A stretch of 39,338 nt of DNA. It comes from Alphaproteobacteria bacterium (lineage in GTDB: Bacteria > Pseudomonadota > Alphaproteobacteria > JALCBB01). The stretch spans positions 1 to 39,338 of the forward strand of contig JALCBB010000004.1 of assembly GCA_028066985.1 (NCBI GenBank), in the 5' to 3' direction. How positions within the stretch are numbered: the stretch's first letter is position 1; every line of letters starts with the position of its first letter. The notes below the pieces were generated by a model that saw only the letters and a program-made list of their open reading frames with translations, was not told the DNA's origin and did no database searches. The position numbers and the translations under genes are program-made. This document shows positions 146 through 36,670 of the stretch, piece by piece.

Positions 146-3100
146 TCAGCCCAATGACTCCACGCGCGCCGCGCAATACTTAAACTCCGGAATCTTCCCG
201 TACGGATCCAACGCCGAATTCGTCAGCAAATTCACACTCGCCTCCGCAAAACAAAACGGCACAAAAATCACTCCCTCAGGAACCTGCCGATCCCCGCGCA
301 ACAGTATCTCTATACTCCCGCGCCGCGTCGCAATACGCACCCGATCGCCCGCCGCAAACCCCAAACCCTCCATCTCGCGCGGATTCAACATCGCGACCGC
401 CTCAGGCTCCAGATCATCCAAAACCCCCGAACGCCGCGTTATCGCCCCCGTATGCCAATGCTCCAGCAAGCGGCCCGTCGTCAAAACCATCGGATACTCA
501 ACATCCGGAACCTCCGCGGGCGCGACCAATTCCGTCGCCACAAAGCGTCCGCGGCCGCTCGCCGTCGGAAAACCCTCGCCGAACAATATCTCGCGTCCGG
601 CGCCCGCCTCCGAATCCGCCGGATAAGTCACCGAATCCTCGCGCTCCAATCGCTCCCACGAGATGTTCGCCAGCGACGGCATCAGTTCGCTCATCTCCGC
701 ATACACCTCGCGCGGATGCCCGTAATCCCACGACAAGCCCGTCCGCCGCGCCATCTCCTGAATCAGTTCCCAGTCCATGCGCGCCTCCCCCGGCGGACGC
801 AAAACCGCCCGCCCCATCTGTATCTGGCGATTCGTGTTCGTATAAGTGCCGACCTTCTCCGCATGCGCCGACGCCGGCAGCACCACATCCGCGAACCACG
901 CGGTCTCGGTCAGGAAGATGTCCTGCACCGCCAGATGCTCCAACTTCGCCAATGCCGCCCGCGCATGCGCCTGATCCGGATCCGACACCGCCGGATTTTC
1001 GCCCAGAATATACATCCCGCGCACCGCCCCCGCCAGAATCGCCTCCACCACCTCAACCACCGTCAGCCCCGGCGACGGACTCAACCCGACACCCCACGCC
1101 GACTCAAACACCGCGCGCACCGAGTCGTCCGCGACCGAACGATAGTCGGGATACACCATCGGTATCAGTCCGGCGTCGGACGCGCCCTGCACATTGTTCT
1201 GTCCGCGCAGCGGATGCAAGCCCGTGCCCGCGCGTCCGATCTGTCCGGTAGAAAGCGCCAGCGCTATCAGACAGCGCGCGTTGTCGGTGCCGTGAATGTG
1301 CTGGCTGATGCCCATCCCCCAGAAAATAATGGAGCGCTCCGAGCGCGCATACAGCCGCGCGACCTCGCGCAAAACCTCCGCCTTCACGCCGCATACCGAC
1401 TCCATCGCCTCGGGCGAAAAGTCGCGCAGCGCCTTTTTCAATTCCGCGAAGCCCTCGGTATGCGCCTGAATGTACTGCGCGTCGGTCAGACCCTCTTCCA
1501 CGATCACATGCAGCATCGCGTTCAACATCGCCACATCACTGCCGGGACGAAAGCGCAGATCATACGCCGCGTGACGCGACAACTCCGAACCGCGCGGGTC
1601 GGCAAGAATCAATTTCGCGCCGGCGCGCGCCGCCGCCTTCAGGTAGGTCGCCGCCACCGGATGATTCTGCGTCGGACGCGCCCCGATCACGAAGATGCAG
1701 TCCGACTCCAGCGCCGCGGTGAACGGCGCCGTCACCGCGCCCGAACCGATGCCCTCCATCAGCGCCGCCACCGACGACGCGTGGCACAGCCGCGTGCAGT
1801 GATCCACATTGTTGCTGCCGAAACCCTGGCGCACCAGTTTCTGGAAGAGATACGCCTCCTCGTTGCTCGCCTTCGCCGAGCCGAATCCAGCGAGGGCGTC
1901 GCCGCCGTGCTTGTCGCGGATGCGCGTCAGTCCGCGCGCGGCGAAGTCCAGGGCTTCGTCCCAGGAGGCTTCGCGGAAGTGCGTGAAGGGGTTGTCGGGG
2001 TCAATCTCCATGTCGGCGGACTTCTCGGCGTCCTCAAGGCGAATCAGCGGACGCCGCAGACGGTGCCGGTGATGCACATAGTCAAAGCCGAATCTTCCCT
2101 TGACGCAGAGACGATTTTCGTTCGCGGGGCCGTCGCGTCCGTCAACCTTGACGATTCGCTCAATGACATCGCCGTTGCCGTCATTGACGGGGACAACGAC
2201 ACCGCCGCCGTTTTTGTCGTCCTTGTTAGCGACGGAGACGACAACACCGCCATTGTCGTCATTGTTTTTGTCGCCACCTTTTTTGTCACCGTCACTGTCA
2301 CCGTCATTGACAGAGGGGACGACAACACCGCCGCCATTTTTGTCGTCCTTGTTAGTGACGGAGACGACAACGGCGGCGCCGTTTTTGTCCCCTTTATTTT
2401 TGTCACCGTCGCCGAGACCATTGACATTCGCCGTGTAGACGCGCGTCTGACATCCCACGCCGCAATACGGACACAGCGTATCCACGCTGCGCTCGGGCGT
2501 GAGGGCGCGGCGTCCGTCTTCGGCGGAGACCAGCCGCGACTCCATCAGCGCGCCCGTCGGACACGCCTGCACACACTCGCCGCACGCCACACAACTGCTC
2601 TCGCCCATCGCGTCGCCAAGATCAAAAATGACGCGCGAGCCGCGTCCGCGTCCCGCCATGCCGATGACATCGTTCACCTGCACCTCGCGGCAGGCGCGCA
2701 CGCAGAGTCCGCAGTTGATGCAGGCGCCGAGTTGCACGGTCATCGCGGTGTGCGAGCGGTCGGCGGCGATCTCGCCGTGCGACGGGAAACGGCTCGTCGT
2801 CACGCCGACGCCTTCAGCCTGACGCCAGAAAACTCCGTCGGGGTCGGGCGACATCTCGCGCGCCGGCTGATCCGCGACCAGCAGTTCAAACACAAGTTCG
2901 CGGCTGCGGCGCGCGCGCTCGTCGCCGAGACGGACTTCCATTCCCGCCGTCGGACGCCGAATGCACGACGCCGCCAGCACGCGCTCGCCCTTGATCTCAA
3001 CCATGCATGTCCGGCAGTTGCCGTCGGCGCGGTAGCCGCTCTCGCCGCTGTGACAGAGGTGCGGGATTTCAACGCCGTGACGCCGCGCGGTTTCCCATAT

Positions 3101-3187
3101 TGTTTCGTTCGCGCGCGCCGTGACGGGCTTGCCGTCTATGGTGAACGGGATCTCCTCGGCGGGCGCGGGTTTTGTGCGACTGGACAT
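146..3187 (-). CDS. fdhA: Formate dehydrogenase alpha subunit (NuoG-like 2Fe-2S/4Fe-4S N-terminus plus molybdopterin oxidoreductase, Cys-type active site)
   Basis: CxxCxxxC ferredoxin motifs (CINCGLCVRAC, CVACGECVQACP), CPYCGVGC, DHCTRLCHASSV active-site motif, GRDGPANENRLCVKGRFGFDYV. Likely start is MSSRTK at 3187, not the 3298 ORF start. Confidence 0.93.
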   Translation of the reverse strand: MSSRTKPAPAEEIPFTIDGKPVTARANETIWETARRHGVEIPHLCHSGESGYRADGNCRTCMVEIKGERVLAASCIRRPTAGMEVRLGDERARRSRELVFELLVADQPAREMSPDPDGVFWRQAEGVGVTTSRFPSHGEIAADRSHTAMTVQLGACINCGLCVRACREVQVNDVIGMAGRGRGSRVIFDLGDAMGESSCVACGECVQACPTGALMESRLVSAEDGRRALTPERSVDTLCPYCGVGCQTRVYTANVNGLGDGDKNKGDKNGAAVVVSVTNKDDKNGGGVVVPSVNDGDSDGDKKGGDKNNDDNGGVVVSVANKDDKNGGGVVVPVNDGNGDVIERIVKVDGRDGPANENRLCVKGRFGFDYVHHRHRLRRPLIRLEDAEKSADMEIDPDNPFTHFREASWDEALDFAARGLTRIRDKHGGDALAGFGSAKASNEEAYLFQKLVRQGFGSNNVDHCTRLCHASSVAALMEGIGSGAVTAPFTAALESDCIFVIGARPTQNHPVAATYLKAAARAGAKLILADPRGSELSRHAAYDLRFRPGSDVAMLNAMLHVIVEEGLTDAQYIQAHTEGFAELKKALRDFSPEAMESVCGVKAEVLREVARLYARSERSIIFWGMGISQHIHGTDNARCLIALALSTGQIGRAGTGLHPLRGQNNVQGASDAGLIPMVYPDYRSVADDSVRAVFESAWGVGLSPSPGLTVVEVVEAILAGAVRGMYILGENPAVSDPDQAHARAALAKLEHLAVQDIFLTETAWFADVVLPASAHAEKVGTYTNTNRQIQMGRAVLRPPGEARMDWELIQEMARRTGLSWDYGHPREVYAEMSELMPSLANISWERLEREDSVTYPADSEAGAGREILFGEGFPTASGRGRFVATELVAPAEVPDVEYPMVLTTGRLLEHWHTGAITRRSGVLDDLEPEAVAMLNPREMEGLGFAAGDRVRIATRRGSIEILLRGDRQVPEGVIFVPFCFAEASVNLLTNSALDPYGKIPEFKYCAARVESLG
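2155..2425 (-). repeat. Low-complexity degenerate repeat tract inside fdhA
   Basis: Encodes GDGDKNKGDKNGAAVVVSVTNKDDKNGGGVVVPSVNDGDSDGDKKGGDKNNDDNGGVVVSVANKDDKNGGGVVVPVNDGNGD. About 60-bp internal direct repeat (near 2189-2250 and 2315-2381). Confidence 0.9.
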
Positions 3188-3370: not shown

Positions 3371-3480
3371 ATTTTTTGCGGGCAGCGCCCGCAGGCATCA
3401 GTTGGCGCGGTTCGCTTGAGCCGGCGCCGTGAATGTCTGAGTCAAACTCCCACTAATGCCGGAGGCTTGCTCTTCGGAAC
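3371..3480 (+). repeat. Intergenic element, copy B1 (forward)
   Basis: Hairpin GCGGGCAGCGCCCGC 3378-3392, GGCATCAGTTGG...CCCACTAATGCC ending at 3460. Confidence 0.9.
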
Positions 3481-3489
3481 TTTTCGGAG

Positions 3490-3595
3490 TGCGACCTCTG
3501 GCATTAGTGGGCGCGGACTCCAGACTAGCCGCGACAGCGGCTCAAGCGAACTGTACCCGCAGACGGCTGGCGGCACTGCCGCCAAATTAAAATTG
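3490..3595 (-). repeat. Intergenic element, copy B2 (reverse, subtype 2 interior)
   Basis: GGCATTAGTGGG from about 3500, interior CAGACTAGCCGCGACAGCGGCTCAAGCG, hairpin TGGCGGCACTGCCGCCA. Confidence 0.88.
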
Positions 3596-4689: not shown

Positions 4690-4797
4690 CGACGAACGGC
4701 CTCCGGCATTAGCGGGAGTTTGACTAAGACATTCACGATAGCCGCTCAAGCGAACCGCACCCGCAGATGGCTGGCGGCACTGCCGCCAAAAAAATTA
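4690..4797 (-). repeat. Intergenic element, copy C (reverse)
   Basis: GGCATTAGCGGGAGTTTGACTAAGACATTCACGATAGCCGCTCAAGCG...TGGCGGCACTGCCGCCA (4772-4788) then A-tract. Confidence 0.88.
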
Positions 4798-4905
4798 AAA
4801 AATAATGAGAAAACAATTTATTTAATTGACACCATTAATTGTCTATTAATAATTAACAGAATAAATTATTTTGACCCCTTAAACAGTCCAATTGCTTTTT
4901 AATTT

Positions 4906-5012
4906 ATTTTTTTGCAGGCAGCGCCTGCGGGCATCAGTTGGTACGGTTCGCTTGAGCGGCTATTGTGAATGTCTTAGTCAAACTCCCACTAATGCCAGAG
5001 GCCGTGCTTCGA
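4906..5012 (+). repeat. Intergenic element, copy D (forward)
   Basis: Hairpin GCAGGCAGCGCCTGC 4914-4928; core ends CCCACTAATGCC at 4996; outer edge ...GTGCTTCG. Confidence 0.9.
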
Positions 5013-6297: not shown

Positions 6298-6412
6298 AGA
6301 GACAATCGAAGTGCGATCTTTGGCATTAGCGGGCGTTTGACTCAGACATTCACGACAGCCGCTCAAGCGAACCGCACCCGCAGATGGCTGGCGGCACTGC
6401 CGCCAAAAAAAT
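6298..6412 (-). repeat. Intergenic element, copy E (reverse)
   Basis: GACAATCGAAGTGCGATCTTTGGCATTAGCGGGCGTTTGACTCAGACATTCACGACAGCCGCTCAAGCG...TGGCGGCACTGCCGCCA (6389-6405). Confidence 0.88.
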
Positions 6413-6474
6413 TAAATTAAAAAGAAAATAATTTATTTAATTTGACTCCTTAAACAGTCCAATTGCTTTTTAAT

Positions 6475-6592
6475 TTATTTTTTGCAGGCAGCGCCTGCGG
6501 GCATCAGTTGGCGCTGTTCGCTTGAGCCGACACCGTGAATGTCTTAGTCAAACTCCCACTAATGCCAGAGGCTGTTCTTCGTCTGTCTCCTG
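6475..6592 (+). repeat. Intergenic element, copy F (forward)
   Basis: Hairpin GCAGGCAGCGCCTGC 6484-6498, core to CCCACTAATGCC at 6566, outer CTTCGTCTGTCTC. Confidence 0.9.
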
Positions 6593-10164: not shown

Positions 10165-13086
10165 TTAGATGTCCAGGCCGCCGCTCTCCGAGGAGGGGCG
10201 GACTTTGGCGTGGTCCAGGATGTCTTTGATGTTTTTGTGCCCCTTGATCATCTGGTTGAAGAACTCCTGACCAAGCAGCACATACTGCCACTCGCAATGC
10301 GAGCGGTGTTCGGGCGGCAGTTCGTTGACTCTTCTGCACCAGTCGCTTGCCGCCGTCATTTTGCGCGTCACATTCGGATGCGAAAGCTGGTCTGTCCCTT
10401 TCGTCTCGACGAGATAGATCGTGTCGTCGCACCGGACGATGAAATCCGGCGAATAGCGCGAGAAGTCTCTCTCGACTCGTATGTAGCGGAACTTCAGAAA
10501 GTCGTGTTTGTACTCGTCGATTTTGCAGAAAGCCCGCACGGACGCGTCCCGGTCGGCGGCCGTGATGAAGTCTCTCTCGAACCCGCCCCTCTGCGACGCG
10601 AAGCGAAGTCTCTCGTAGATGCACTTGGAGACCGGAAGAGAAAGCGATTCCCGCATCCTCAGCGCGGGCACTTCGGAGAGGCGTTTGTGGAAAACCTGCG
10701 TTTCCCCGACGATTTCCGTTTCTTCGGATTCCGCCAGAGCGATTGTCGCCTCCTTGATGATGTGCTCGGCGACATAATCCAGCAGGAGCAGCCGCCAGTT
10801 TTCGTCTTCCATCGGGTCCATCTCGCGCGCGAAGAGGCGCGTGCGTATGTACCTGTCGATCCACTCGGCGATGAGCGGTCTTTGCACCTGGAGGTAGGGG
10901 AATCTCGCGAATGAACGGGAATCTCTGACGAGCGACCTGCTCGCCACATTTTCGGAGATTCTTGTGGTCATGCGCGCCAGGTAGTCGTTGTAGCCCCTGG
11001 AGGTCATCACTCCGCCCTTGACGCTGTAGTCGCCGAACCTGGTTTTCTTCTGCACATCCACGGAGGCGGCGCGGTCGTGCCTTTGCAGCGCGCTTTTCAG
11101 CTGACTGAAGTCCATCGTGTTGAAAGGCTTCAGACTGTTCACATCAAAGGTTTTCGGCTTGATTTCTTCGTCGGTCTCAATCCAGCGGACGGGAATCTCA
11201 AAGTCGTACGCCTCGTATCCGTCGCGCAGTTCCACGCTCAGCATGTCGCCGATGACTTTATTTCTCGGATCGTCGTCCGTCGCGACGATCAGATTATCCG
11301 CCATCAGTTCGTCGTAGTAGTCCTGAAAATTCGGGTGTTCAATGATGGACAGCATGTCAATCAGGCTGTCCGGCGCGTGACCGTCGTCGATCAGTCTGCG
11401 GTTTTCTTTTTTGGCGTCGGTGTAGTCCGCCTCGCGCCACATCAGGCGGAGACCGCGCCCGATGGTCTGCTCCAGCAGAATGCGCGACCCCGCCGTGCGC
11501 AGAGGAACGATGACGCAGATGTTGTTGACATCAAACCCCTCGCGGAGCATCAGCACATTGATGACGACGCGCGGCTGCTCGTGATCGTCCAGATCAAAGA
11601 GCCGCTCGCGCAGTTTCGCCCATTCGCCCTGCTTCAGTTCCCCCTTTCTGCTTGAGTCCACGGTCAGGATGTCTTCTTCCGTGAGCCCTTCGCCCAGCAG
11701 GAATTCGCTCACGAGCGGAGTGACGGTGGTGTCCTCGCAGACGACGAGCATCTTGGGGCGTTTCGTTTCGTCCAGTTTCCGAAACTCCGTCTCTAGGATT
11801 CCGAGTTTGGTGATGCCCATTCTCAGCATGAGACGCTGACCCTCGGACAGAGACCTTGCCTTCCCCTTTTTTCTCCTGCCCTCCTCGTAGCGCTCGGCGC
11901 GATAATCCATGTCGAGCTCCTCCTGCGGTATGGCGCCGCTTTCAATCCGTTTGTCCAGCAGCAGAGACTTGACGAGGAGATTGCGCAGCGCCTCCTTCAG
12001 GTCAAAGTCGGATATGATGTGGGGAAAGTGGGACGGCGTCGCCGACGCCGTTTTCTGGCTGTAGGGAGTCGCCGAGAAGTCAAAGCGCGTGAATCTGCCC
12101 TGCTTGGGTTCGGCGATGTAGTTCAGGCTTTTCTTCCACTCCACGACGGAATCCTTCTGTCTCGCGTCTTCATGGATGTGGTGCGCCTCGTCGTTGAAGA
12201 CCATCAGGCTGGGAAGCCCGTGCAGGTATTCCAGAATTTCCCCCTTGAGCCGCTTTTTGTTCAGTTGCCCCAGGTCGCTTCCCGCGCCCGCGCCAAGCGG
12301 AGTCGGCAGGATTCCCTTTATCACATCTTTCGGGTCGGGAGTTTCGCCCGGGGTTATGAACGCGTCCTCCTCGCCGTCGTCCGCTTCATCAATCTTGTCC
12401 TGGATGGCGTGCCAGTTGGTGACGGCGATGACGCCGTCGCCAGTTGTTTTCCGGCCGATGTCCTCCTTGCGGCAGAAGGCGTTTCCGATGAAGGCGAGGA
12501 CTTCGCCTCTGTATCGTTCAGGGATAAGCAGGTCCTGGTATTTGTGGAAGTCGGATTTTTCCAGATCCGGTTTCCCGTCTTTTTCCTTGCCGAGGAAGGC
12601 GTCCAGAATTCGCTGATAGACGATGAGTCCGGGCGTGATGATGAGAAAGTTTTTTGTGAATCTGTCGGGAGCCTCGGAATAGGAGGCGTTCAGATACGAC
12701 CAGATGAGCAGGGCGTGAAGCACCCAGGTTTTGCCGGTGCCGGTCGCCATCTTGACGCAGTACAGAGGATGAAGGTCCGTGCCATCCTTCGGCAGAAGAC
12801 CGCCGAGAAGTTCCCTCGGCGCGACTTCTTCGTACAGATGCTTCAGGTTTCTGGTCTGCAGGACTTCGTGGGCGTAGACGGCGTTCAGGATCGCCTGTTT
12901 CTGTCCCTTGTGAAAATTGATGTCGCGTCCGCCTGTCCACTCGCCGGCGAACCAGAAGCGCAGCAGTTCGGCGGTCATCGGCGACACCTTGTCCAGCATT
13001 GGCGCCGCCCCGTCTTCCAGACCGCTTGCCTCCCCGTTCACCATTCGGGAGAGGGTGCGCGCGAGAGTGAGATCGTTCAGCGCCAT
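10165..13086 (-). CDS. Type III restriction-modification system Res subunit (module 1)
   Basis: ATGTGKTWVLHALL Walker A, VFNDEAHHIHED, QTIGRGLRLM, C-terminal PD-(D/E)xK-like SPDFIVRCDDTIYLVETKG; start overlaps mod stop (TAATG). Confidence 0.92.
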   Translation of the reverse strand: MALNDLTLARTLSRMVNGEASGLEDGAAPMLDKVSPMTAELLRFWFAGEWTGGRDINFHKGQKQAILNAVYAHEVLQTRNLKHLYEEVAPRELLGGLLPKDGTDLHPLYCVKMATGTGKTWVLHALLIWSYLNASYSEAPDRFTKNFLIITPGLIVYQRILDAFLGKEKDGKPDLEKSDFHKYQDLLIPERYRGEVLAFIGNAFCRKEDIGRKTTGDGVIAVTNWHAIQDKIDEADDGEEDAFITPGETPDPKDVIKGILPTPLGAGAGSDLGQLNKKRLKGEILEYLHGLPSLMVFNDEAHHIHEDARQKDSVVEWKKSLNYIAEPKQGRFTRFDFSATPYSQKTASATPSHFPHIISDFDLKEALRNLLVKSLLLDKRIESGAIPQEELDMDYRAERYEEGRRKKGKARSLSEGQRLMLRMGITKLGILETEFRKLDETKRPKMLVVCEDTTVTPLVSEFLLGEGLTEEDILTVDSSRKGELKQGEWAKLRERLFDLDDHEQPRVVINVLMLREGFDVNNICVIVPLRTAGSRILLEQTIGRGLRLMWREADYTDAKKENRRLIDDGHAPDSLIDMLSIIEHPNFQDYYDELMADNLIVATDDDPRNKVIGDMLSVELRDGYEAYDFEIPVRWIETDEEIKPKTFDVNSLKPFNTMDFSQLKSALQRHDRAASVDVQKKTRFGDYSVKGGVMTSRGYNDYLARMTTRISENVASRSLVRDSRSFARFPYLQVQRPLIAEWIDRYIRTRLFAREMDPMEDENWRLLLLDYVAEHIIKEATIALAESEETEIVGETQVFHKRLSEVPALRMRESLSLPVSKCIYERLRFASQRGGFERDFITAADRDASVRAFCKIDEYKHDFLKFRYIRVERDFSRYSPDFIVRCDDTIYLVETKGTDQLSHPNVTRKMTAASDWCRRVNELPPEHRSHCEWQYVLLGQEFFNQMIKGHKNIKDILDHAKVRPSSESGGLDI

Positions 13087-14993
13087 TATTCTGTCTCGGC
13101 GGAGGCTTCGGCTTCAAAGCCGAAGACATCCGCGACGCGCACGCAGATTTTTCTGGAACCTTCCACCGGCTCCAGGTCGCCGAGGGTCGCGGAGGTTCGG
13201 ACCCGATCCGGTTCCGGATTCTCTTCGTCGCCGCGATAGTTCTGCCACACCGAGCGAAATGTCTCGCCGTCGTAGTCGGGGTCTACGCTCCAGTACGAGA
13301 TGAGCGAGAGCGGGTCTTCGGCGATGAGCCGCTCCACTTTTTTACGATCCTCATCCTTGAGGTTGATGGCGTGCGGCGACAGCAGGACATAGTTTCCCAG
13401 CGAAACTTCCAGCGTCTCGCTTTTTTCGTGTCTGGCGCGCTTCACCTCGCCCAGGGTGAGATACTGCAGAGGGGAGAAGCGCACCTCGTCTGGCTTCAAA
13501 CCGCCCCCCTCTTTTCGTATTTTCTCCAGCAGGTCGGGAGGAATGACCAGCACCTCCACCTCCTCGCTGTATCCGTTTCGCAGATACTCGCTCATCTCGG
13601 GATCAAAGTTCCAGCCGAGCAGGGTGGCGTTCTCGAATCCTCCGAGCCGGGTTCGCTTGATTTCCATGACGCTTCTCAGCGTTTTCAAGCCCGTGGTTTT
13701 TCTCGGACTGTCCACATAGACAAGGCGATTTTCCTTGACTTTTTCCCCGAGGTTCCCTTTGGGATTTGCTTCGTGATGAAGCGGCGTTCCGCCGAAAAGT
13801 TTGATGACGATCTGCGCCAGATCCCCCGCGGTCATCCTGCGTCCGCCGATGCTCTTTTGCGCCGTGATGCGCGCCTCCTCGGCGTGGTAGTCGCCGATGT
13901 GCATGTAGAGAAACGGCGCCGCTTCTTTTTTCACCAGTTCTTCGCGCGAAATCATGCACGCCGGCTTGCCGGAATCGCAGACGATCCATCTGCGCCCCAG
14001 CCTTTCGGCGACGCGCGCTGTCGTGCCGCTGCCGGTGAAAAAATCAACGACGAGATCGCCCTCGTCGCTTGACGCCTTGATGATGCGCTCGAGCAGACCT
14101 TCGGGCTTCTGTGTCTGATACCCCGTTCTTTGCGTGTTTCGCGTAGCGGTTGCAAATGAAGGAATGTCCGACCACCAGTCGTTTTGTCTTTTGCCCTCCT
14201 TCATTTTCTCCCTGGCTAATTTCTCGGCTTCCTGACGGTCGGTGTGCCCTTTGCGCCAATAGGCGGTTACCGGCAGCGACTCGTAGTCGGCCGCCACCTC
14301 TTTCCAGTTGAAGGTGTTGTTTTCGGCTTTCGCGTAGAAAAGAATCGTGTCGTGCTTTCTTTTGAAGTGATTGTTCGCCTGACCGCCGCCGATATAGCAC
14401 CAGACAATTTCGTTGCGGAAATTGTGCTCGTTGAAGATTTCATCCAGGACCAGTTTGATGACATGGCTCACTGTCGGATCGCAGTGCAGGTAGAAACTGC
14501 CCTTGTCGGACAGCAGTTCTCTCATCAGAATCAGGCGCGGAATCATCATTCCGAGATAACTCTCCGTGCCTTTTGTCCAGAAGTCCGAGTAGGCGAACTG
14601 CTGCAGCGTCGTCGCCGTCTGCTCCACCCTCCCTCCGGGCAGTTTCACCGAAAATGTGTAGTTCGCCCTGCTGTTGAACGGCGGGTCAATGTAAATCAGA
14701 TCCACCTTCCCGCGCAAAGAGGGAGACAACTCGTCACCCGCCAGCAAAGCGGTCATCGCGAGCAGATTGTCGCCGTAAATCAGCCTGTTCATGGACGCCG
14801 GATCAACCTCGACATCCTTGACATTCTGCTGCTTGTACAGCCTGTTCCATGTGCTGTCGCGCGAGGAAATCACGAGTTCGCGCACCTGGAGACCGATGCG
14901 GTTGCCCTCCTCGATGCGCTTGAGCGCGCGCTCGGCCTCGCGCTCGCCGTCGCTCACAATCTTGGGGAGTTTGTGTATCAGAGAGTCAGACAT
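13086..14993 (-). CDS. Type III restriction-modification DNA methyltransferase Mod (module 1)
   Basis: [15 protein letters not shown] (motif IV) followed by [20 protein letters not shown] (motif I), beta-class order. Confidence 0.93.
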
Positions 14994-15792: not shown

Positions 15793-17301
15793 TCACGGAT
15801 TCAATCCCCGCACCGCCGCCAGATCGCCCAGCAACGCCGTCTCAAAACTCAACAACGCCGCCTCCGCCGCCAGACGCACACGCATCTCCTCCTGCCACGG
15901 CGCCAGAACACCGCCCGCGACACCGCCTAAACCCTCCAACGCCACCAAAGCCTCGCCGAAAGCATCGGCCGTCAACGCCGCCTCGGCGCGTCCGAGACGA
16001 CCCAGCAAACCCTCGCCGCCGCCAAGACGGCTGAAACGCAAGTCGCCCGGCAAACGCGACAAAACCCGTCCCCACCAGCCCTGCTCGCGCAGCCAGTCAG
16101 ACTCAACACGCGCCCGCAACATCGCGAACTCCGCCCGCAAACGCGCGCGCGGCGCAATGCCCGCGTCCGCACGCGTGCCAAGCGCCGAAACCAGCGCCGC
16201 AACACCGCCGGCCTCGCCATCACCGCCGCCGCCGCCCGACAAACGCAAAACCACATCCAGAGCCTCGCGGTACGGACGCCCCGAATCCACCGCATGTCGC
16301 AACTGCAAAATCGCCAGCGCCCGCACCGCCGCCTCGTCAGGACGCCGCCGCGCCAGTTCCTCAATCTCCTCAAGACGCGCGTCCAGCCCCGCCTCAAGAC
16401 GGCTGAAGGCGCGCGCGCTCAGCGTCAAGTCTTCCAGTTGCTCCTCCAGAAGCAGCAGCCGCGCCTCAAGCGCGCGCACCGCCGCGAGTTCCTCGGCGCG
16501 GAGAGCGGCCGCCTCGGCAAGCGCCGCCTCGGTCTCGGCGGAACGCGACTCCGCGCGCGGCGGCGGCTCGGGCAGAGTGCGCAGCGCCGGACGGACGCGT
16601 CCCTGCAGTTCGGCGGTCGTCTCTTCGGCGACGGGCGCGGACGGACGCTCCCAGCCGATGCGGTAGTCGCGGAAGACATCCAGCCAGGTCCAGACGATCG
16701 CCGCCAGCAGCGCGAACGCCGCCGACCAGGTGATGACACGCCGCGCCGCCGAAGCGCGTCCGTCGCCGCCGGGGGAAGAGGACGGCGACCGCGACCGTGA
16801 TCGTGATCGTGACGAAGACGGCGAGGACGATGACGGCGACGGCGAGACCGTCACCGTCTCCTGCGCCGCTGTTGTCGTCTCCGACTCTGACTCATTGACT
16901 GCGACCGTCGCCGTCTCTGTCCCCGTCGTCGTCGCCGTCTCTGTCTCCGTCCCCGTCGTTGTCGTTCCCGGCTCTGACTCGTCCACGACGACCACCGACG
17001 CCGCTGTTGCTCCGCGCCGTGTCGCTGTCCGTGTACGCGTCTGCGTCCGTGTCGCCGCGCCGCGCCGCCGCGCTGTTCCGAGGGCGGTTTCCAGTATTTC
17101 GCTGTTGATGCCGGCGCGTTCGGCGAAGTCGCGCACGGCGTCCTCGCGTTTCGGGGGGATTTTGCCGCGCAGTTTCCAGCCCTGCACCGTGGAAACCGAC
17201 AGCCCCAGTCCCGCCGCCAGCGGACGCAATCCGCCCGCCGCCTCTATCAGCGCCGCGACCGCTTCCAGTCCGTCGTCATGAGGGGAAGAGGGGGAGGACA
17301 T
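15793..17301 (-). CDS. Mitofilin/HemX-like membrane protein with N-terminal helix-turn-helix
   Basis: N-terminal GGLRPLAAGLGLSVSTVQGWKLRGKIPPKREDAV (HTH), low-complexity linker, one TM (VITWSAAFALLAAIVWTWL), coiled coil, mitofilin-like C-terminus; operon position after hemD. Confidence 0.7.
   Translation of the reverse strand: MSSPSSPHDDGLEAVAALIEAAGGLRPLAAGLGLSVSTVQGWKLRGKIPPKREDAVRDFAERAGINSEILETALGTARRRGAATRTQTRTRTATRRGATAASVVVVDESEPGTTTTGTETETATTTGTETATVAVNESESETTTAAQETVTVSPSPSSSSPSSSRSRSRSRSPSSSPGGDGRASAARRVITWSAAFALLAAIVWTWLDVFRDYRIGWERPSAPVAEETTAELQGRVRPALRTLPEPPPRAESRSAETEAALAEAAALRAEELAAVRALEARLLLLEEQLEDLTLSARAFSRLEAGLDARLEEIEELARRRPDEAAVRALAILQLRHAVDSGRPYREALDVVLRLSGGGGGDGEAGGVAALVSALGTRADAGIAPRARLRAEFAMLRARVESDWLREQGWWGRVLSRLPGDLRFSRLGGGEGLLGRLGRAEAALTADAFGEALVALEGLGGVAGGVLAPWQEEMRVRLAAEAALLSFETALLGDLAAVRGLNP
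16783..17066 (-). repeat. Low-complexity GTC/GAC repeat tract inside mitofilin-like gene
   Basis: Encodes TRTQTRTRTATRRGATAA...TTTTGTETETATTTGTETATVAVNESESETTTAAQETVTVSPSPSSSSPSSSRSRSRSRS. Confidence 0.9.
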
Positions 17302-18191
17302 TACAGCGACAGAATCTCCATTTGCCAGGGGAGCAGCGTCCGCGCCGTGTCGGCGACGGCGGGGCTGCGGGCGAGTCCGAGTATATGCGTACAGCGGGGT
17401 TCGTGTCCAGAGGCGCGGACAAGAGACGCGAACAGCCGCGCCGTACGCGCCGAGGGCAGGACTACGCCCGCGCCCGCGCCGCCGCGCCGCGCCATTTTCG
17501 GCGCCGCGCGCAGGACTGCTCTTGCGCCGCGCGGCAGATATTCCGCCGCCTTCATTTCGTAGAGAATCAGGGATTGGAGGTTGTAGCCGCCGGCGAGGAG
17601 GCTCTTTGCCGGTTCGGGAGACGCGTGTACGCCTCGCAGGTGCAGGAGCGGAGACGAAAACGCGTGTTTAAGGCGTACGGTTTCGGCGAGGGAGGCGCCG
17701 TTTCCGTCGGCGGTGCAGATGGTCTCAAAGCCGAATTTTTGCGCCGCCGCCGCCGTTTCGGCTCCGACGGCGTAGACGGGCAGCCGACACAGCCCCTCCT
17801 TCAGCCTGTACGCGTTTTCGCTGTCCGCCTTATACGCGTTCTGGTCGTCTGGACTATAAGCGTCCTGATTGCCCGAATTGCGCGTATTTTGGTCGTTTGG
17901 ACTGTAAATGTCCCGTTCGCCTGAATCGCCCGTGTTCTGGTTGTCTGACATATACGCGTTTTTGCCGTCCAAGCCATACGCGTTAAGAGCGCGTACGGCG
18001 TTGGCGCTCGTAAGAATGAGGGCGGAATCGGTTTTTCGCGGAAATTCAGCGAGTTTTTGAAGCACCTCCTCGGGCTGTCCGGCACGGCGGAAACTCCACA
18101 CGGGCGCGGAGATCGCCTCGTGTCCGAGCAGCGACAGGCGCCGCGCCGTCTCCCGCGCCTGATGCGGCGCGCGCAGAACAAGCACCCTCAT
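17301..18191 (-). CDS. hemD: Uroporphyrinogen-III synthase (with internal repeat insertion)
   Basis: Starts 4 nt inside hemC; LILTSANAVRAL, LPVYAVGAETAAAAQKFGF, LLHLRGVHA; between hemC and mitofilin-like gene. Confidence 0.85.
   Translation of the reverse strand: MRVLVLRAPHQARETARRLSLLGHEAISAPVWSFRRAGQPEEVLQKLAEFPRKTDSALILTSANAVRALNAYGLDGKNAYMSDNQNTGDSGERDIYSPNDQNTRNSGNQDAYSPDDQNAYKADSENAYRLKEGLCRLPVYAVGAETAAAAQKFGFETICTADGNGASLAETVRLKHAFSSPLLHLRGVHASPEPAKSLLAGGYNLQSLILYEMKAAEYLPRGARAVLRAAPKMARRGGAGAGVVLPSARTARLFASLVRASGHEPRCTHILGLARSPAVADTARTLLPWQMEILSL
17808..17992 (-). repeat. Degenerate repeat tract inside hemD
   Basis: Encodes NAYGLDGKNAYMSDNQNTGDSGERDIYSPNDQNTRNSGNQDAYSPDDQNAYKADSENAYRL; recurring TACGCGT and GGTCGTYTGGACT at DNA level. 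Confidence 0.88.
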
Positions 18192-22200: not shown

Positions 22201-22312
22201 GAATCGCGTTTCGGTCCAGGGGGATGGCGAACTGGTCGGCGAGAAAACTGAACAGAACGAGGCTCCTGTCCAGCGGGATCTCCGTGCGGGCGGAGGCTCG
22301 GCGCGACATCAT
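19229..22312 (-). CDS. Type III restriction-modification system Res-like helicase/endonuclease (module 2)
   Basis: WSATGSGKTLMMHINLL Walker A, VMIDEGHRGHSG, QLFGRGIRL, C-terminal QDFIMWLFADDRRHIAFIDPKG nuclease-like motif; 4-nt overlap with mod. Confidence 0.9.
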   Translation of the reverse strand: MMSRRASARTEIPLDRSLVLFSFLADQFAIPLDRNAIPDLGAFKTLMEDVAAENYTKVLENQESLNPDLRQHLSDYDNNIREHTEKIGRRRDGDLQWEYFQWLILMFSERCLHLWFHDKEALLRDLDEHRHRRFLRLSRYDESDLARLALWSATGSGKTLMMHINLLQFRRCLEKYRREHDISQEILLVPNDGLALQHLAEFRDSGIAARVFDKRHIGGFRRGEVEIVSIHKIRDDDATSREGETVPVSAFESKNLVMIDEGHRGHSGEKWLRYRAAMTGRGFSFEYSATFGQIKDAGKRYARSILFDYSYRRFYDDEYGKDFKIFNLNSAGFENQDDRRKYLTACLLAFYLQMKTYESDDKWRQEHNIEKPLLVFVGARVNAVRTENRAKVSDVLDAVIFLNGILSDPEQTRADIRGILRNGDSLQDADGNPIFGDLFSPLKDDPREIYADLLAKVFQSDSSASLHLEKVADADGEIALRAGVAEPFGVINIGDVTAFLKLCAQHLPDAIADDRNFSGSLFRRINEPNSRVSVLIGSKKFTEGWNSWRVSTMGLLNVGKSEGTEIIQLFGRGIRLHGKDNDLKRQINSSDSGVKTLETLNIFGLRANFIAEFKEYLRREGLDDQKPFTIPVTVAEETLDSRTFPIVKTEKNEDGFREEVSVLVKHSDGRDVDEVQFAMRMSVSSMTSARESESGEGARIRIPPQYKAFFDRAAIQEALLRHKRVKGWYNLVLDDRLADDLLENDDWYSLSGDPADAEGLDWEKLRHWQSIAADMMKQYVTNFRRRELREWAAANRKYARLDKSHGNFISKYEVRVDKQNKHLMDSIGEIIKGKPGYAGLTAPDTSNLHLYKPLLALKNSIPPREARVIPGDARLNDGEKNFLEALLKWWDKKGRDRGMEIFLLRNRSRGHGVGFIEYGFYQDFIMWLFADDRRHIAFIDPKGLVHSGPASDKVKFGDYLREKIEPALREKSGREFSDCRLHYFLVSQTPKAEVEKMYSELPGYVLYPEDEGYIEDMISRIIGERDA

Positions 22313-27470: not shown

Positions 27471-30400
27471 ATTTTCGGGGAGGCCGCTCAGCAACTTCAA
27501 ATGCCGGTTCGCCAGCAACAGCATAGACAAGCGCGGGTTCGCATCCACCCGCAACTCCGACAACAACTCGTGCGCCCGCTCATACTCCCGCCGATGCCGG
27601 CTCACCCAGCGGCCGATCGTCGCCTCCGGCTCCAAACCACGCCGCCCGCCCTGCGACAATATCCGCATCGTCAAAGCCGCCTGGTGAAAGTCCGCGTCCT
27701 CCAGCAGACTCTGAACCGCCAGTTTGTCCCACAATGTCAGACGCGGCACCTTCCCCGCCGCCGAACGCAGCCAGTCATACCCGAAATACTCCCCCACCCC
27801 GAAAAACAAACCCGCCACCTCCGCCACAGGCAGACCAAAACGCTGCGCCAGGTCCGATATCCCGCACGCCGACGACAAAAACGGCAGAAACGCCACCTCC
27901 CGCGCCAATGAACCGACAATCCCAAGTTCCGTAAATCGCTCCACCCGCCCCGCGAAACGCGCCAGACTGTCACCCTCAAGCAAATCCGCGCCCATCTCCG
28001 CCAGAGCCTCCACATCGCCGCGATAGCGCGCGACCTGCACCCCGATCGCGCCGTCGGCGCCGTTGCGCAAAAACCACGCCGTCGCCAGTTCGCAGAGACG
28101 CGCCGCCTCCACCAGCACCGCCTCGTCAGGACGGCGCGGATCAAAATCCATCGCCTCCGCAAGACGCCACAGACGCGGAATGGAAAACAACGCCAGCGTC
28201 ATTATCCACGCCCGCACCACCGCCTCGCTCTCGCTCCCCGTGCGCTCGCCGATCTCGCTCACAAACGCCACGCCCATCCGATTGCCGACGCCGTTCGCCA
28301 GCAGCATCGCCGTGATCTCGCGCCGCAGCGGATGCCGCAAAATCTCCGCCGAATAACGCCGCGACAACACCCCGGGAAAATACGCCAGCAACTCCGACTC
28401 CAGAAACGAATCCTCAAGCAGGTCCGAACCGATCAGGTCGTCATACAGGGCGTTCTTCGTGTGCGCCAGAAGCACAGACAACTCCGGACGCGTCAGACCC
28501 AGGCCGCGGCGGTTTCTGTCCTCAAACTCCTCGGCCTCCGGCAGACCCGACAGGCGACGGTCTAATTCATGGTGTCGCTCCAGATGCCGTATCACATGAC
28601 GCAGCCGGTCGCTCAGCGCGACGCTCAAGCCCTCCATCACGCTCAGACTCTGCACCTGCAGAAAATTATGACGCAGGACATGCGCCGCCACATCCGTCTC
28701 CATTGAGCCGAGCAGCCGGTCGCGCGCCGCGCGCGACAACTCGCCGCGCGACTCCGCGCCCGCCAGCAGAATTTTGATGTTCACCTCGTGGTCGGAGCAG
28801 TCCACGCCCGCCGAGTTGTCAATGAAGTCGGTGTTGATGTGTCCGCCGCAGGTCGCGTATTCAACGCGCCCGGCCTGGGTCACGCCGAGATTCGCGCCCT
28901 CCGCCACCACCAGCGCGCGCACCTCGCGGCCGCGGACGCGAATCGCGTCGTTGGCGTGGTCGGAGAGCGCCGCGTCGCTCTCATGACTGCCGCGCACATA
29001 AGTGCCGATGCCGCCGAACCACAGCAGGTCGGCTTCGGCGCGGAGAATCGCGCGCATGATGTCGGCCGGCGGCATCTCGCCCGCGTCAACTCCCAGACGC
29101 CGCGCCGCCGCCTCGCTCAGGCGAATCTGTTTCTCCGAACGCGCATGCACGCCGCCGCCGCGCGACAACTTCGCCGTGTCAAAATGATTCCAGTCCAGGC
29201 CGCCGCGAAAGAGCCGGCGGCGTTCCGCGAACTGAACGGACGGGTCGGGATTCGGATCCAGAAATATCCAGCGATGATTGAACGCCGCCACCAGCCGCAG
29301 CGAGCGCGACAACAGCAGTCCGTTGCCGAAAACATCGCCCGACATGTCGCCGACGCCTGTCACCGTGAGCGGCGCGGTGTCGGCGTCGCGTCCGAGTTCG
29401 CGGAAATGGCGGCGCACCGACTCCCACGCGCCGCGCGCGGTGATTCCCATCTCCTTGTGGTTGTAGCCCGCCGACCCGCCGGACGCGAAGGCGTCGCGCA
29501 GCCAGAAGTCGTGCGCCGCCGCGACGCCGTTGGCGATGTCGGAAAAATTCGCCGTGCCTTTGTCGGCCGCGACAACAAAATAGGGGTCGGGCGCGTCCAG
29601 ACAGACCACGCCTTCCGGACGCAGAAGGGCGCCGGCGGCGTCGCGGTTGTCGGTCACCTCAAGGAGCGCGGTGATGAAGCGGCGATACGCGTCCTCGCCC
29701 GCGGTCGCCAGCGCCGCGCGCTCGGCGGGCGGACGGCGCAGGGCGAAGCCTCCTTTCGCGCCCGCGGGAACAATCACCGCGTTTTTCACTTCCTGCGCCT
29801 TCGCGAGTCCGAGAATTTCGTCGCGGAAGTCGTCCGGGCGGTCGGACCAGCGCAGTCCGCCGCGCGCGATGCGTCCGAAGCGCAGATGCACGCCGTCAAA
29901 GTCGGGCGCCGAGACGAAAATCTCGGCGAGCGGACGCGGACGCGGCAGAAACTCAAGGCGGCGCGGCTCCAGTTTGAACGACACGACTTCGCCGCTGCGG
30001 CTGTCGGCGCCGGCGCGCCAGTAGTTGCTGCGGACGATCGCGCGCACCACTTCCAGGAGGGCGCGGAGGATTCTGTCCTGCGCGGCGTCCGAGACGGCTT
30101 CCAGGGTTTTTTCAATTTGTGTTTCAATCGCCGCGCCGCGCCGCTTGCGTTCTTTTGCTGTCGCCGTCACCGTCGCTGTCACCGTCGCGGACGATGACGG
30201 GGACATTAACGGTGACGATGATGCGCCCGCTGTCACCGTCTCTGTCACCTTCGCGGACGAGGACATTAACGCGGACGATGACGATGGCGCGCTCGTCGTC
30301 ACCGTTTCTGTCTCCGTCTCCGTCACCGTCGCTGTCTCCGTTTCCCCCGCGTCCGGGCGGAGGCGCGTTTCAAACAGCGACACCAGCATCCGCGCCGCCG

Positions 30401-32954
30401 CCGGCGTCCGCATCAGCGCGTTGGCGATGGAATCCAGACTCGCCGGAAAACGCGTCTGCAGAAGATAACGGCCGAAGGCGCGCAGAATCGCCGCCTCCTG
30501 TGGCGACAGGCCGGCGCGCAGAACCAGGCCGTTCATGCGGTCGTCTTCAATGCGTCCTGTGAGGACGCCGACAAAGCACTCCGCCAGCGCCTCGCGGATG
30601 TGCGCCGGCGGCGGCGGCGAGTCTCCGAGCAGCAGCGAAAAGTCGTAGAGCCAGATGCGGTGGCCGCCCGTCGTGCGGAACGAAAATGTATGCTCCTCGC
30701 GCACGCGGAACCCCATGCGCTCAAGCACCGGCAGCGTGTCCGAGAGCGAAAGTTGATCGCCCGGATGCAGACAGCGAAACGCCAGACGCGCCTCGCCCGA
30801 AGGAACATCGCCGGGCGCGTCATACGCCCGCTCCCCCGGAGACGCGCGCGCGCTCACATGATCGCCGAACCACTCCAGCCGCGCGCGCAGTTCCGCCTCT
30901 TCGGCGACCTGATCCAGCCACGCCAGATCCGCCGACGCCTGAATCGGCGCGTAGCGGTCGGCGTATTCGTCGGAGATGCTGCCGCCCCATCGGCGCAGCA
31001 CCGCCGCCGCGCGCTCCTCGCCGAGGCGTTCTATCAGACGCCGCGCCAGACGCTCGCGCCACGAACGCAGACGCTCGTCAATCTCGCGCGTCAGTCGCTG
31101 CAGCGAAATCTGCCGCCGCGCGCCGATGAAGAGTCCGTGAACGCGGACGAGCGAACTTTCGTCGTGAACGGCGCGGAGGGCGTGCGGCTTCGCGTCCAGG
31201 GCGCGCGCGACATAGCGGCGGATTTCTTCCAGCGCCGCCTCGCTCACATTGAGACGCGGCAGGCAGAGCGTCACATACCAGAGTTGCTCGGTCGTCTCGT
31301 GATGCGCGAAGACCCGCGTGCCGGGCTGTTCCTGAAGGCTTTCTATCGCGACCGCGAGTTCCGCCGTGTGCGGGGCGGGAAGGTGAAACAATTCGTCGCG
31401 CGGCCAGGTGTTGAGGATATGCCGCAGCGCCTTGCCGCTGTGCGACGACTCCGAGAGGCCGGCGCGTCCGGTGATTTCCACGAGTTTGCGGCGCAGGATC
31501 GGAATCTCGCCGATGTCTATGAAATACACATTGGAGGTGAAGAGTCCGACGAACATCGCGAAGACCGGCTTCTGTCCGCGCGCGGCGGGAAGGCGCACGA
31601 CCACGAGGTCCATCGGCGCGTCCAGATGAACGCGCGAGCGCATGCTGGATTTCCAGATCACCAGACGGCCGGGCGGCTCGTGGCGCGTCTTCGGCAGATT
31701 TTCGCGGCGACGGAAAATGCCGAGCGCCCGGCTCTGACTGCGGCGGCGCTCGGTGCCGGTCAGCGCGCCGAGGAATGTGAAGTGATCGTCGGCGAGCCAG
31801 CGCAGGAACTCGGCTTCTTCGGCGCGTTTTTCGCTTCGTGAGGACGAGGCGTCGGCGGCGAGGATGTCGGCGATTTCGCGGCAGCGGCGGCGCATCGCGC
31901 GCCAGTCGGCGACGGCGAGGTTGAGGTCGGCGTAGGTTGAGCGCATCTCGGCGTGAATCTCCGCCATTCGTTCCACCGCGCTCGGCGAGAGTTCTATCAG
32001 CACGACGGATTCGCTTTTGCGTCCGCGTGTTTCGGCTGTTGTGCCGGTCTCGCCGGCCGCGTCGGCTCTGGAGCCGGGGACGAGGTGCGTGAGGCGTCCG
32101 CCGGAGTCGCGGACGACGGAGACGACCGGATGCAGCACGAGGCGCGTCTCAACGCCGAGACGATTCAGCGCCGCGAGGGTGCTGTCGACGAGGAACGGCT
32201 TGTCGTCGTGAATCGTCAGCAGAAACGGACGCGCCGCCGACATCGGGTCGGATGACGGCGCGTGAAAGACTTCAAGAATCTCGCGTCCGCCCGCGCGTCT
32301 TCGCAGACGGCGGAAACTGTGCGCCGCCGCCGCCGCGAGCGCGGCCGGATCGCGCGCGCGCAGGGCTTCGTCGGTTGTGGTGGCGAAGAGGGCGGGCAGG
32401 TAGCGCGCCGCGAGCGCGAGTTCTTTTTTGTCGGACGCGTCGCCGAGGTCAATGCCGCCCGCCTGTCCGGCGAGTGCGAAGAGGGTCTGCGTCGGCTTGC
32501 CGCGCGGCGCGCGCAGGTAGCCGAGGCTTTCGGCGCTCAGGCGGTCGCGCACGCTGCCGGCTTTTGCCTGTCTCTTCGCTCCCGCCTTTGGCGCCGCCGC
32601 CGTTGTCGCCGCCTTTTTTGTCACCTTTTTGGTCGACGGGGACGATGAAGCCGCCCGCCTCGCCGCCCGTTTTTTTGTCGCCGCCGTTTTTGTCCCCGGG
32701 GACGACGAGGCTGCGCGTCCTCTCGCCTTTTTTGTCGCCTGCTTCGCGGACGCCGTTTTTGTCGCCCGCTTCACTGACACCTTTTTGGTCGACGGGGACG
32801 ATGAGGCTGTCCGTCTCCTTGTCCGGCTTTTTTTCGGCGCCGTTTTTGTCGCCCGCTTCGCGGACGCCTTCTTTGTCACCTTTTTGGTCGACGGGGACGA
32901 TGAGGACACCCGCCCTCTCGCCTGTTTTTTTGTCGTGCGTGTCTTTCGCGCCAT
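27468..32954 (-). CDS. gdhB: NAD-specific glutamate dehydrogenase (large, about 180 kDa class) with two repeat-rich insertions
   Basis: 1828 aa; KPFLVDSTLAALNRLGVE, GLRWSDRPDDFRDEILGLAKAQEVKNAVIVPAGAKGGF, SAGYNHKEMGITARGAWESVRRHFRELG, GVGDMSGDVFGNGLLLS, AEGANLGVTQAGRVEYA. Confidence 0.96.
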   Translation of the reverse strand: MARKTRTTKKQARGRVSSSSPSTKKVTKKASAKRATKTAPKKSRTRRRTASSSPSTKKVSVKRATKTASAKQATKKARGRAASSSPGTKTAATKKRAARRAASSSPSTKKVTKKAATTAAAPKAGAKRQAKAGSVRDRLSAESLGYLRAPRGKPTQTLFALAGQAGGIDLGDASDKKELALAARYLPALFATTTDEALRARDPAALAAAAAHSFRRLRRRAGGREILEVFHAPSSDPMSAARPFLLTIHDDKPFLVDSTLAALNRLGVETRLVLHPVVSVVRDSGGRLTHLVPGSRADAAGETGTTAETRGRKSESVVLIELSPSAVERMAEIHAEMRSTYADLNLAVADWRAMRRRCREIADILAADASSSRSEKRAEEAEFLRWLADDHFTFLGALTGTERRRSQSRALGIFRRRENLPKTRHEPPGRLVIWKSSMRSRVHLDAPMDLVVVRLPAARGQKPVFAMFVGLFTSNVYFIDIGEIPILRRKLVEITGRAGLSESSHSGKALRHILNTWPRDELFHLPAPHTAELAVAIESLQEQPGTRVFAHHETTEQLWYVTLCLPRLNVSEAALEEIRRYVARALDAKPHALRAVHDESSLVRVHGLFIGARRQISLQRLTREIDERLRSWRERLARRLIERLGEERAAAVLRRWGGSISDEYADRYAPIQASADLAWLDQVAEEAELRARLEWFGDHVSARASPGERAYDAPGDVPSGEARLAFRCLHPGDQLSLSDTLPVLERMGFRVREEHTFSFRTTGGHRIWLYDFSLLLGDSPPPPAHIREALAECFVGVLTGRIEDDRMNGLVLRAGLSPQEAAILRAFGRYLLQTRFPASLDSIANALMRTPAAARMLVSLFETRLRPDAGETETATVTETETETVTTSAPSSSSALMSSSAKVTETVTAGASSSPLMSPSSSATVTATVTATAKERKRRGAAIETQIEKTLEAVSDAAQDRILRALLEVVRAIVRSNYWRAGADSRSGEVVSFKLEPRRLEFLPRPRPLAEIFVSAPDFDGVHLRFGRIARGGLRWSDRPDDFRDEILGLAKAQEVKNAVIVPAGAKGGFALRRPPAERAALATAGEDAYRRFITALLEVTDNRDAAGALLRPEGVVCLDAPDPYFVVAADKGTANFSDIANGVAAAHDFWLRDAFASGGSAGYNHKEMGITARGAWESVRRHFRELGRDADTAPLTVTGVGDMSGDVFGNGLLLSRSLRLVAAFNHRWIFLDPNPDPSVQFAERRRLFRGGLDWNHFDTAKLSRGGGVHARSEKQIRLSEAAARRLGVDAGEMPPADIMRAILRAEADLLWFGGIGTYVRGSHESDAALSDHANDAIRVRGREVRALVVAEGANLGVTQAGRVEYATCGGHINTDFIDNSAGVDCSDHEVNIKILLAGAESRGELSRAARDRLLGSMETDVAAHVLRHNFLQVQSLSVMEGLSVALSDRLRHVIRHLERHHELDRRLSGLPEAEEFEDRNRRGLGLTRPELSVLLAHTKNALYDDLIGSDLLEDSFLESELLAYFPGVLSRRYSAEILRHPLRREITAMLLANGVGNRMGVAFVSEIGERTGSESEAVVRAWIMTLALFSIPRLWRLAEAMDFDPRRPDEAVLVEAARLCELATAWFLRNGADGAIGVQVARYRGDVEALAEMGADLLEGDSLARFAGRVERFTELGIVGSLAREVAFLPFLSSACGISDLAQRFGLPVAEVAGLFFGVGEYFGYDWLRSAAGKVPRLTLWDKLAVQSLLEDADFHQAALTMRILSQGGRRGLEPEATIGRWVSRHRREYERAHELLSELRVDANPRLSMLLLANRHLKLLSGLPEN
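30158..30352 (-). repeat. GTC/GAC-rich repeat tract inside gdh (internal)
   Basis: Encodes GETETATVTETETETVTTSAPSSSSALMSSSAKVTETVTAGASSSPLMSPSSSATVTATVTATAKE. Confidence 0.9.
32565..32954 (-). repeat. Repeat-rich N-terminal region of gdh
   Basis: Lysine-rich SSPSTKKVTKKA / SVKRATKTASAKQATKK repeats; the same strand read in another frame (ORF 32449-32976) gives VPVDQKGDKKGGDNGG, like the fdhA insert. Confidence 0.88.
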
Positions 32955-34147: not shown

Positions 34148-34162
34148 AAGTCCCGTAGAACA

Positions 34163-34338: not shown

Positions 34339-34346
34339 CGCCACTG

Positions 34347-34440: not shown

Positions 34441-35724
34441 CTACGGACACACAGGCAACTCCGACGAACCATGCCGCCGCGCCACCGAAAACTCCACCAC
34501 CCCGCCCAGCAAAGCGAACCCCCCCGCCAGCAGAAACAACCCCTCGTATCCCCCCAGCGTGACCAGCAGCCACACATAAAACGCCGACCCCGCCGCCTGA
34601 AACAAACCGAACAAAAACGACGCCCGCGCCCACACCCGCCGGCTCAACACCTCGTCGCCTCCGAGCAAAGCGCGAAGCCGCGCCGCCAGCACTCCGACCT
34701 GCGCGAAATTAAACACCCCGATGCAGAACGACATCACGCCCAGCACCCACACATTAACACTCGCTATCGGAACCAGCAGCGTCACCCCCAGCGCCAGCAA
34801 AGCCACGCGATACGAAAAACCGCGGCCGAACCTGTCGGCGAAGCGTCCGAAACAGAGAGAGCCGAAAATCGCGCCCGCTCCCATCATCTGCCAGTACAAT
34901 CCGCCCGTCGACATCCCGTAACCGAGTTCGCGCACCACAAAATCAATAAACAGCACCTGCGGCATCGCCAGACTCAGCGAACTCAGCGAATACGAAATAT
35001 AACTCCCGACAACCAGACGATGAACCGCCGAATCCACGGACGAATCCGCCGACACCGTTTCTGCCGCCGTCATTGTCGCCGTTGTCGCCGTCATTGCCGG
35101 CGCCGTTTCTGCCGCCGTTCGCGCCGGCGCTGTCGTCACCGTCGCCGTTTCCGTCTGCGAAGACTCGCGGGTGTCGTCGCTCCACGCGGCCCAGGTCAGT
35201 CCCGTCAGCGCCAGACATGTCACGCCCAGACCAAGCCACACCGTCGTCAGACTCAATTCCGACAACAGCGGCACCAGCAGCCCCGACAAAATCAGACCGC
35301 CGCCCATTCCCGAAACCAGGATGCCGCCGATCAGCGCATGATGCGGCGGCGGCGTGCGCGACTGCACATTGAGCATCGCCAGGACCAGCACCACTCCCGA
35401 GGTCATGCCGCCGGCGAAGAGAAAAAACGCGAACCACGCGAACTCGCCGGGACGCGAACACGCGAAAAAACTCAGCGCCGCCACGCACAAAGACGCGCGT
35501 ATCGCCGCTCCGGACGGCACGCGGAACCACGAGAACGACGCCAGCAGCGCGCCGGCGAGGTATCCGAAGAGGTTGCCGACGCCGAGGGTGTAGGTTTGCG
35601 TTTCGGAGAACCATCCTGCCTCTATGGCGAGCGGAATGAGGGTGGCGAAACTGAAGCGCGCCAGTCCCATCGTCACGAGGAGCGCGCAGAAGCCCGAGAA
35701 CACTATGTAGATCGTGCGTGCCAT
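34441..35724 (-). CDS. YbfB/YjiJ-family MFS transporter
   Basis: MARTIYIVFSGFCALLVTMGLARFSFATLIPLAI, GRFADRFGRGFSYRVALLALG; upstream extension to 36462 is spurious (antisense to YbaK gene). Confidence 0.88.
   Translation of the reverse strand: MARTIYIVFSGFCALLVTMGLARFSFATLIPLAIEAGWFSETQTYTLGVGNLFGYLAGALLASFSWFRVPSGAAIRASLCVAALSFFACSRPGEFAWFAFFLFAGGMTSGVVLVLAMLNVQSRTPPPHHALIGGILVSGMGGGLILSGLLVPLLSELSLTTVWLGLGVTCLALTGLTWAAWSDDTRESSQTETATVTTAPARTAAETAPAMTATTATMTAAETVSADSSVDSAVHRLVVGSYISYSLSSLSLAMPQVLFIDFVVRELGYGMSTGGLYWQMMGAGAIFGSLCFGRFADRFGRGFSYRVALLALGVTLLVPIASVNVWVLGVMSFCIGVFNFAQVGVLAARLRALLGGDEVLSRRVWARASFLFGLFQAAGSAFYVWLLVTLGGYEGLFLLAGGFALLGGVVEFSVARRHGSSELPVCP
35048..35165 (-). repeat. 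GTC/GCC-rich repeat tract in MFS central loop
   Basis: Encodes QTETATVTTAPARTAAETAPAMTATTATMTAAETVSA between the two six-TM halves. Confidence 0.85.
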
Positions 35725-36650: not shown

Positions 36651-36670
36651 TTGTCAATTAATTTCTATTT

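Follow-up and report, generated by a model that had tools for sequence, protein, structure and literature searches.

The phenomenon nearest to the one described here is that of the Rickettsia palindromic elements (RPEs), reportedly described by Ogata in 2000, together with their Wolbachia counterpart (WPE); the PARCEL repeats and certain mitochondrial coding palindromes stand further off. RPEs are reported to measure about 100-150 bp, each family having its consensus and a conserved peptide (PMC10969869, PMC3767692), and the families RPE-4, RPE-6 and RPE-7 are rich in ATGAC (PMC3767692). PARCELs are dyad-symmetric coding repeats which spread within genomes, mostly in genes for membrane or surface proteins, and show one amphipathic motif (PMC2996958). 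Coding palindromes are common in the mitochondrial genes of Nematomorpha, with both arms encoding conserved protein sequence (PMC6649704).

An insert in the iron-sulfur domain of a formate dehydrogenase

The window analyzed here is a stretch of 39,338 nucleotides from an alphaproteobacterium (contig JALCBB010000004.1), close to one end of which lies a formate dehydrogenase (FDH) gene with the following features:

146..3187, minus strand: open ORF for the alpha subunit of a formate dehydrogenase (FdhF/FdsA type), 1013 aa, carrying the insert
2168..2425, minus strand: in-frame insert, residues 255-340, 86 codons, a GAC/GTC-phased RNY tract (boundaries from the alignment)
2189..2245, minus strand: first 57-nt copy of an internal direct repeat
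2315..2371, minus strand: second 57-nt copy, with 93% identity to the first
2366..2389, minus strand: exact match to the imperfectly palindromic core of the family, GACAAAAACGGCGCCGCCGTTGTC

The ORF scores 701.7 bits against the TIGR01591 (Fdh-alpha) profile, whose curated cut-off is 666.25, and Pfam searches recover all of the Fe4S4, molybdopterin and MGD-binding domains. The spacing between the CPYCGVGC and CVKGR motifs is 114 aa, as against 26-31 aa in 91 homologs drawn from contigs and whole genomes of Alphaproteobacteria and beyond (26 aa in 83, 27 in three, 30 in two and 31 in three), with a value of 31 aa in G001, a genome of the same family; the net insert therefore amounts to 83-88 aa. 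The initial annotation, which had pointed to an insert of about this size in a turn that is normally short and lies beside the Fe4S4 cluster, is borne out by this spacing, as is its suggestion of an internal duplication by the two 57-nt copies. Despite the insert, the frame is open throughout and the characteristic FDH cysteine motifs and molybdopterin domains are intact, as it had also stated. The enzyme probably stays functional.

At the insertion site the homologs show the turn of a β-hairpin (VxVKDDKILYVDGR). An AlphaFold2 model computed from an alignment including 42 homologs has the two strands of this hairpin (residues 247-255 and 342-350) flanking the insert as expected, whereas residues 257-339 are without structure, with pLDDT below 50 (near 23). 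The remainder of the model matches FDH1 of Methylorubrum extorquens (8j83/7vw6; TM 0.84/0.93), the closest solved relative (MeFDH1, 7vw6), whose sequence aligns with both flanks of the insert and itself lacks it. The tract sits at the tip of a β-hairpin adjoining the 4Fe-4S cluster domain. It contains four hairpin-like units (DKNGAAVVVS, DDKNGGGVVVP, DDNGGVVVS and DDKNGGGVVVP) and departs sharply in codon usage from its host gene: GAC and GTC account for 28 of its 86 codons but for at most 13 in any other 86-codon window of the gene, i.e. a third of the insert against 5% of the rest, and 80% of its codons are of the RNY form against 25% elsewhere in the gene. These excesses indicate that the insert is not a product of chance.

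A lineage-restricted family of triplet-phased repeats

The DNA of the insert returns 95 blastn matches within its own genome (E<=0.01). The insert belongs to a family of GAC/GTC-phased, RNY-type tracts, whose units of about 27 bp (24-30 bp) follow the imperfectly palindromic pattern GACAAWRAMGGCGCC(GCC/TTC)RTTGTCGTC. In the scanned contigs GAC and GTC recur in a single triplet phase within each stretch. The tracts vary in length from about 45 to 370 bp; an alignment of 107 cores shows only the core itself to be conserved, embedded in indefinite RNY sequence, and no constant tract ends were seen among these cores in a DNA-level comparison of filled sites. A fixed palindromic element was rejected on the basis of this alignment.

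The family is restricted in its distribution. Searches for its degenerate 15-mer core, GACAAWRAMGGCGCC, give 170 hits in the 2.0 Mb genome studied here, 0-5 hits in each of 384 other alphaproteobacteria and no hit in G001, and an extended version of the core is found 23 times here and never in 199 other genomes of the phylum. Viral contigs contain no exact match to the extended core, and a phage source was rejected on this ground. Runs of seven in-phase GWC triplets number 37 in this genome and are lacking in 51 of 57 other genomes; the remaining six have at most seven such runs each, and those listed as examples are either simple microsatellites or grouped at one or two sites. Contigs of the genome chosen without regard to tracts have 8.6-13 phased tracts per 100 kb (about 1.1% of the sequence), while 400 kb of G001 yielded none at a stricter cut-off and one at a looser one. 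Scaled up from the contig density, the whole genome would hold roughly 170-260 tracts. In a literature search of partial coverage we found no report of this particular repeat family.

The tracts also bear traces of copying. Exact 21-mers are common to 117 pairs of loci, where codon-shuffled or codon-Markov controls lead one to expect 1-3, and there are 325 24-mers repeated within loci against an expectation of zero; together these point to a short unit that was first dispersed and afterwards multiplied locally. Exact matches between loci do not exceed about 26-30 bp, which gives no sign that whole elements have transposed recently. Compared with codon shuffles, the folding of 60 whole tracts gives a mean z of -0.54, with 11 of the 60 below -1.645; the FDH insert does better (z -2.25). 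Palindromicity of whole tracts beyond their codon composition is thus weak.

Other repeats in the window and the genome

Another dispersed repeat (TGCGGGCTAGCCCGCA...TCGCTTGAGC...CCCACTAATGCCA) is very abundant, occurring 27.6 times per 100 kb, with a ratio of 196:5 outside versus inside genes, and is absent from 400 kb of G001. In the window it is seen at:

13, 45-82, 3412-3540, 4744-4985, 6361-6555, 27104-27434, 34082-34209, 36379-36751 and 39248-39288: second dispersed repeat

Part of the intergenic repeat is present in three perfect 43-bp tandem copies at 34210-34339, beside a tRNA (34347-34418). The HemD ORF (17301-18191) is split at about 17825-17955 on the minus strand by an Asn/Asp/Tyr-rich repeat (QNTGDSGERDIYSPNDQNTRNSGNQDAYSPDDQ) that is not of the GAC/GTC type, and its Pfam match falls into two stretches. 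By eye, the neighboring ORF pairs at 10165-14993 and 19229-25341 are putative type III restriction-modification systems (helicase/restriction and methylase). The hexamer GGCGCC occurs 148-174 times per 100 kb here and six times per 100 kb in G001, where its scarcity perhaps reflects site avoidance.

Tracts inside genes and the frames in which they are read

Beyond the FDH gene, the window has four further tracts:

16781..16978, minus strand: second tract of the family, T/E/S-rich, in ORF 15793-17301, read in another frame than that of FDH
30160..30336, minus strand: third tract, in NAD-glutamate dehydrogenase between the HM3 and catalytic domains, other frame (TETETVTTSAPSSSS)
32607..32698, minus strand: tract of related sequence (blastn, 74% to the FDH insert) in the N-terminal part of the glutamate dehydrogenase ORF, with tandem repeats at 32612-32791
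35055..35119, minus strand: weaker tract, rich in T/A/V, in an MFS transporter, where it lies in the central loop between two Pfam half-matches

Lys/Ala/Thr-rich N-terminal tails resembling histone H1 (TKKATKKAARPSSRSRSR) are found in CarD (contig L163, 3131-3457) and at the glutamate dehydrogenase N-terminus (window 32582-32791); these appear to be a subclass of the triplet-phased family.

The gene calls are rough, as they come from a simple gene finder based on codon usage; among them, 79 of 518 genes bear a tract overall, and 18 of 129 (~14%, about one in seven) do so in the random contigs. Some of the tracts counted as intergenic, e.g. that inside ThiM, are probably genic. Pfam matches verify 26 carrier genes: FDH alpha, NAD-glutamate dehydrogenase, an M81 peptidase, a UPF0004/radical-SAM protein (MtaB-like), a tetrapyrrole-methylase-family protein (RsmI-like), DnaX, MutL, penicillin amidase, MurJ, YhdP, MnmA, an ABC ATPase, SMC, pyruvate carboxylase, RplE, ThiM, NtrY, a BPD permease, HisS, GuaA, an HrpJ-like protein, a DUF2125 protein, HtpG, CarD, an S15 peptidase and YidC. 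Relative to G001, FDH is longer by a net 83 aa, pyruvate carboxylase by 66 and MurJ by 101. Where the tract forms an N-terminal extension (RplE, DnaX, MnmA and the ABC ATPase), it may lie upstream of the true start.

The 99 genic tracts are distributed over the three frames as 59, 40 and 0. In the 59, GAC is read as a codon and D/N/G/V-rich peptides result, whereas in the 40 a shifted phase with ACN and TCN codons gives T/S/P/A-rich peptides; a count by hand in the Pfam-verified genes gave 14:17:0. The two used frames are open in about 80 of 90 tracts, and the third, used by none of the 99, has TGA in 66-76 of the 90. No genic tract shows a break in phase, as against three of 25 tracts outside genes. 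A contrast is offered by the genome's other abundant repeat (CCCACTAATGCC), which lacks triplet phasing and is found outside versus inside genes at 196:5. The tracts are probably translated as disordered peptides, and if so the frame split and the unbroken phase are as expected from purifying selection acting on a DNA insert that is itself indifferent; neither a peptide under selection nor a sequence that is removed would be expected to give this pattern. Hence the initial annotation of a Gly/Asp/Lys/Val insert as a feature of formate dehydrogenase holds only in part: it is indeed present there, but as dozens of unrelated genes carry the same DNA family, read in two frames, the unit is a DNA repeat rather than that peptide.

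Origin of the tracts

We consider it likely that the FDH insert represents one local colony of a selfish, triplet-phased repeat DNA specific to this lineage, which is dispersed in the genome and kept in genes only where it is in frame at loops, linkers or termini. A function of the insert selected at the protein level, such as an acidic calcium-binding or partner-docking loop, could be read from its DGDSDGD-like acidic runs and preserved ORF; it is improbable given that none of the 91 homologs has the insert, let alone a folded domain shared by all orthologs, that the domain search gives only a sub-cut-off match to GroES (E 0.0076), that AlphaFold2 predicts no fold there, and that the tracts of other genes yield T/S/P/A-rich peptides through another frame. 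Somewhat less improbable, though still unlikely, is a discrete, fixed-length mobile element of the MITE or RPE class moved by a transposase in trans. The dispersal of the tracts, their in-frame position in genes, their short palindromic cores and their enrichment in ATGAC/GTCAT (12.5 against 2.1 per kb; an enrichment also reported for RPE-4/6/7, PMC3767692) speak for such an element; against it stand the variable lengths and ends, the weak palindromicity of whole tracts, the use of two reading frames and the lack of any detected Y1 transposase or reverse transcriptase.

That the tract might be removed before or during translation, by splicing, as an intein or by ribosomal bypass, would fit its position inside a conserved Fe-S domain with a normally short turn. 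This is highly improbable: no intron-type RNA or intein match was found, and as removal would make the in-frame constraint needless, the absence of all 99 genic tracts from the stop-rich frame and of any break in their phase counts against it. Least probable of all is an artifact of assembly or binning, for which one could cite the 199 contigs of the genome with their runs of N, some adjoining tracts; the tracts are diverse in sequence, are spread over dozens of contigs and are all in frame when genic.

Several candidate drivers were also rejected. Neither a Y1/RAYT transposase (PF01797) nor a reverse transcriptase was found in this genome. The SbcD hairpin nuclease was not detected here, but it is also missing in G001 and none of 21 relatives scored over the cut-off; hence, its loss does not discriminate and was dismissed as the cause. 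Loss of mismatch repair was set aside as both MutS and MutL are present, and an RNA element as Rfam gave no match besides a tRNA.

Returning to selfish repeat DNA, the imperfectly palindromic unit makes hairpin-driven slippage or template switching plausible, although whole tracts fold only slightly better than shuffles. Under the proposed mechanism the complementary GAC and GTC triplets would form hairpins, these would drive slippage or template switching that lengthens the tract, and short pieces of it would be copied to new sites. Survival in a gene would need a length that keeps the frame, a TGA-rich frame that is not the reading frame and a site in a loop, linker or terminus; the surviving genic tracts would then be translated as disordered peptide.

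Comparison with known systems

Like the RPEs and WPEs, the tracts are dispersed repeats of an alphaproteobacterial host, inserted in frame at exposed sites in unrelated protein-coding genes. They differ from RPEs in their variable length and sequence, strict triplet phasing of a ~27 bp unit and use of two frames; compared by descriptions and ATGAC enrichment, they do not form a discrete 100-150 bp element with a consensus and an overall palindromic fold. With PARCEL they share dyad symmetry in coding repeats and intragenomic spread, but the carriers here are mostly cytoplasmic, housekeeping enzymes and the peptides are of two unrelated types, depending on the frame. With the Nematomorpha palindromes they share inverted repeats inside translated genes that are common in the organism, whereas the tract here is extra sequence. 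Low-complexity disordered loops are also inserted genome-wide in housekeeping enzymes of Plasmodium, as here; those inserts differ in having another base composition and no such shared dispersed unit, and the present case is a 2 Mb bacterium.

More tentatively, and with somewhat less than even confidence, we propose that the family is a distinct kind of selfish coding DNA, i.e. a strictly triplet-phased, strand-symmetric (RNY/GNC) repeat that has entered about one in seven genes, including housekeeping ones, and whose generator is a replication or repair process. Being open in four of the six frames, such a repeat could enter genes whichever way round it lies, and in two frames.

In this genome, repeat DNA has invaded essential bacterial genes in frame at an unusually high density. 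The use of two frames separates spread at the DNA level from selection at the protein level, with the stop-rich frame acting as a built-in filter, and the about 26 verified proteins are natural experiments on the amount of disordered sequence that enzymes tolerate and on the places where they do so. The generator, if found, would explain the entry of new peptide sequence into old bacterial proteins.
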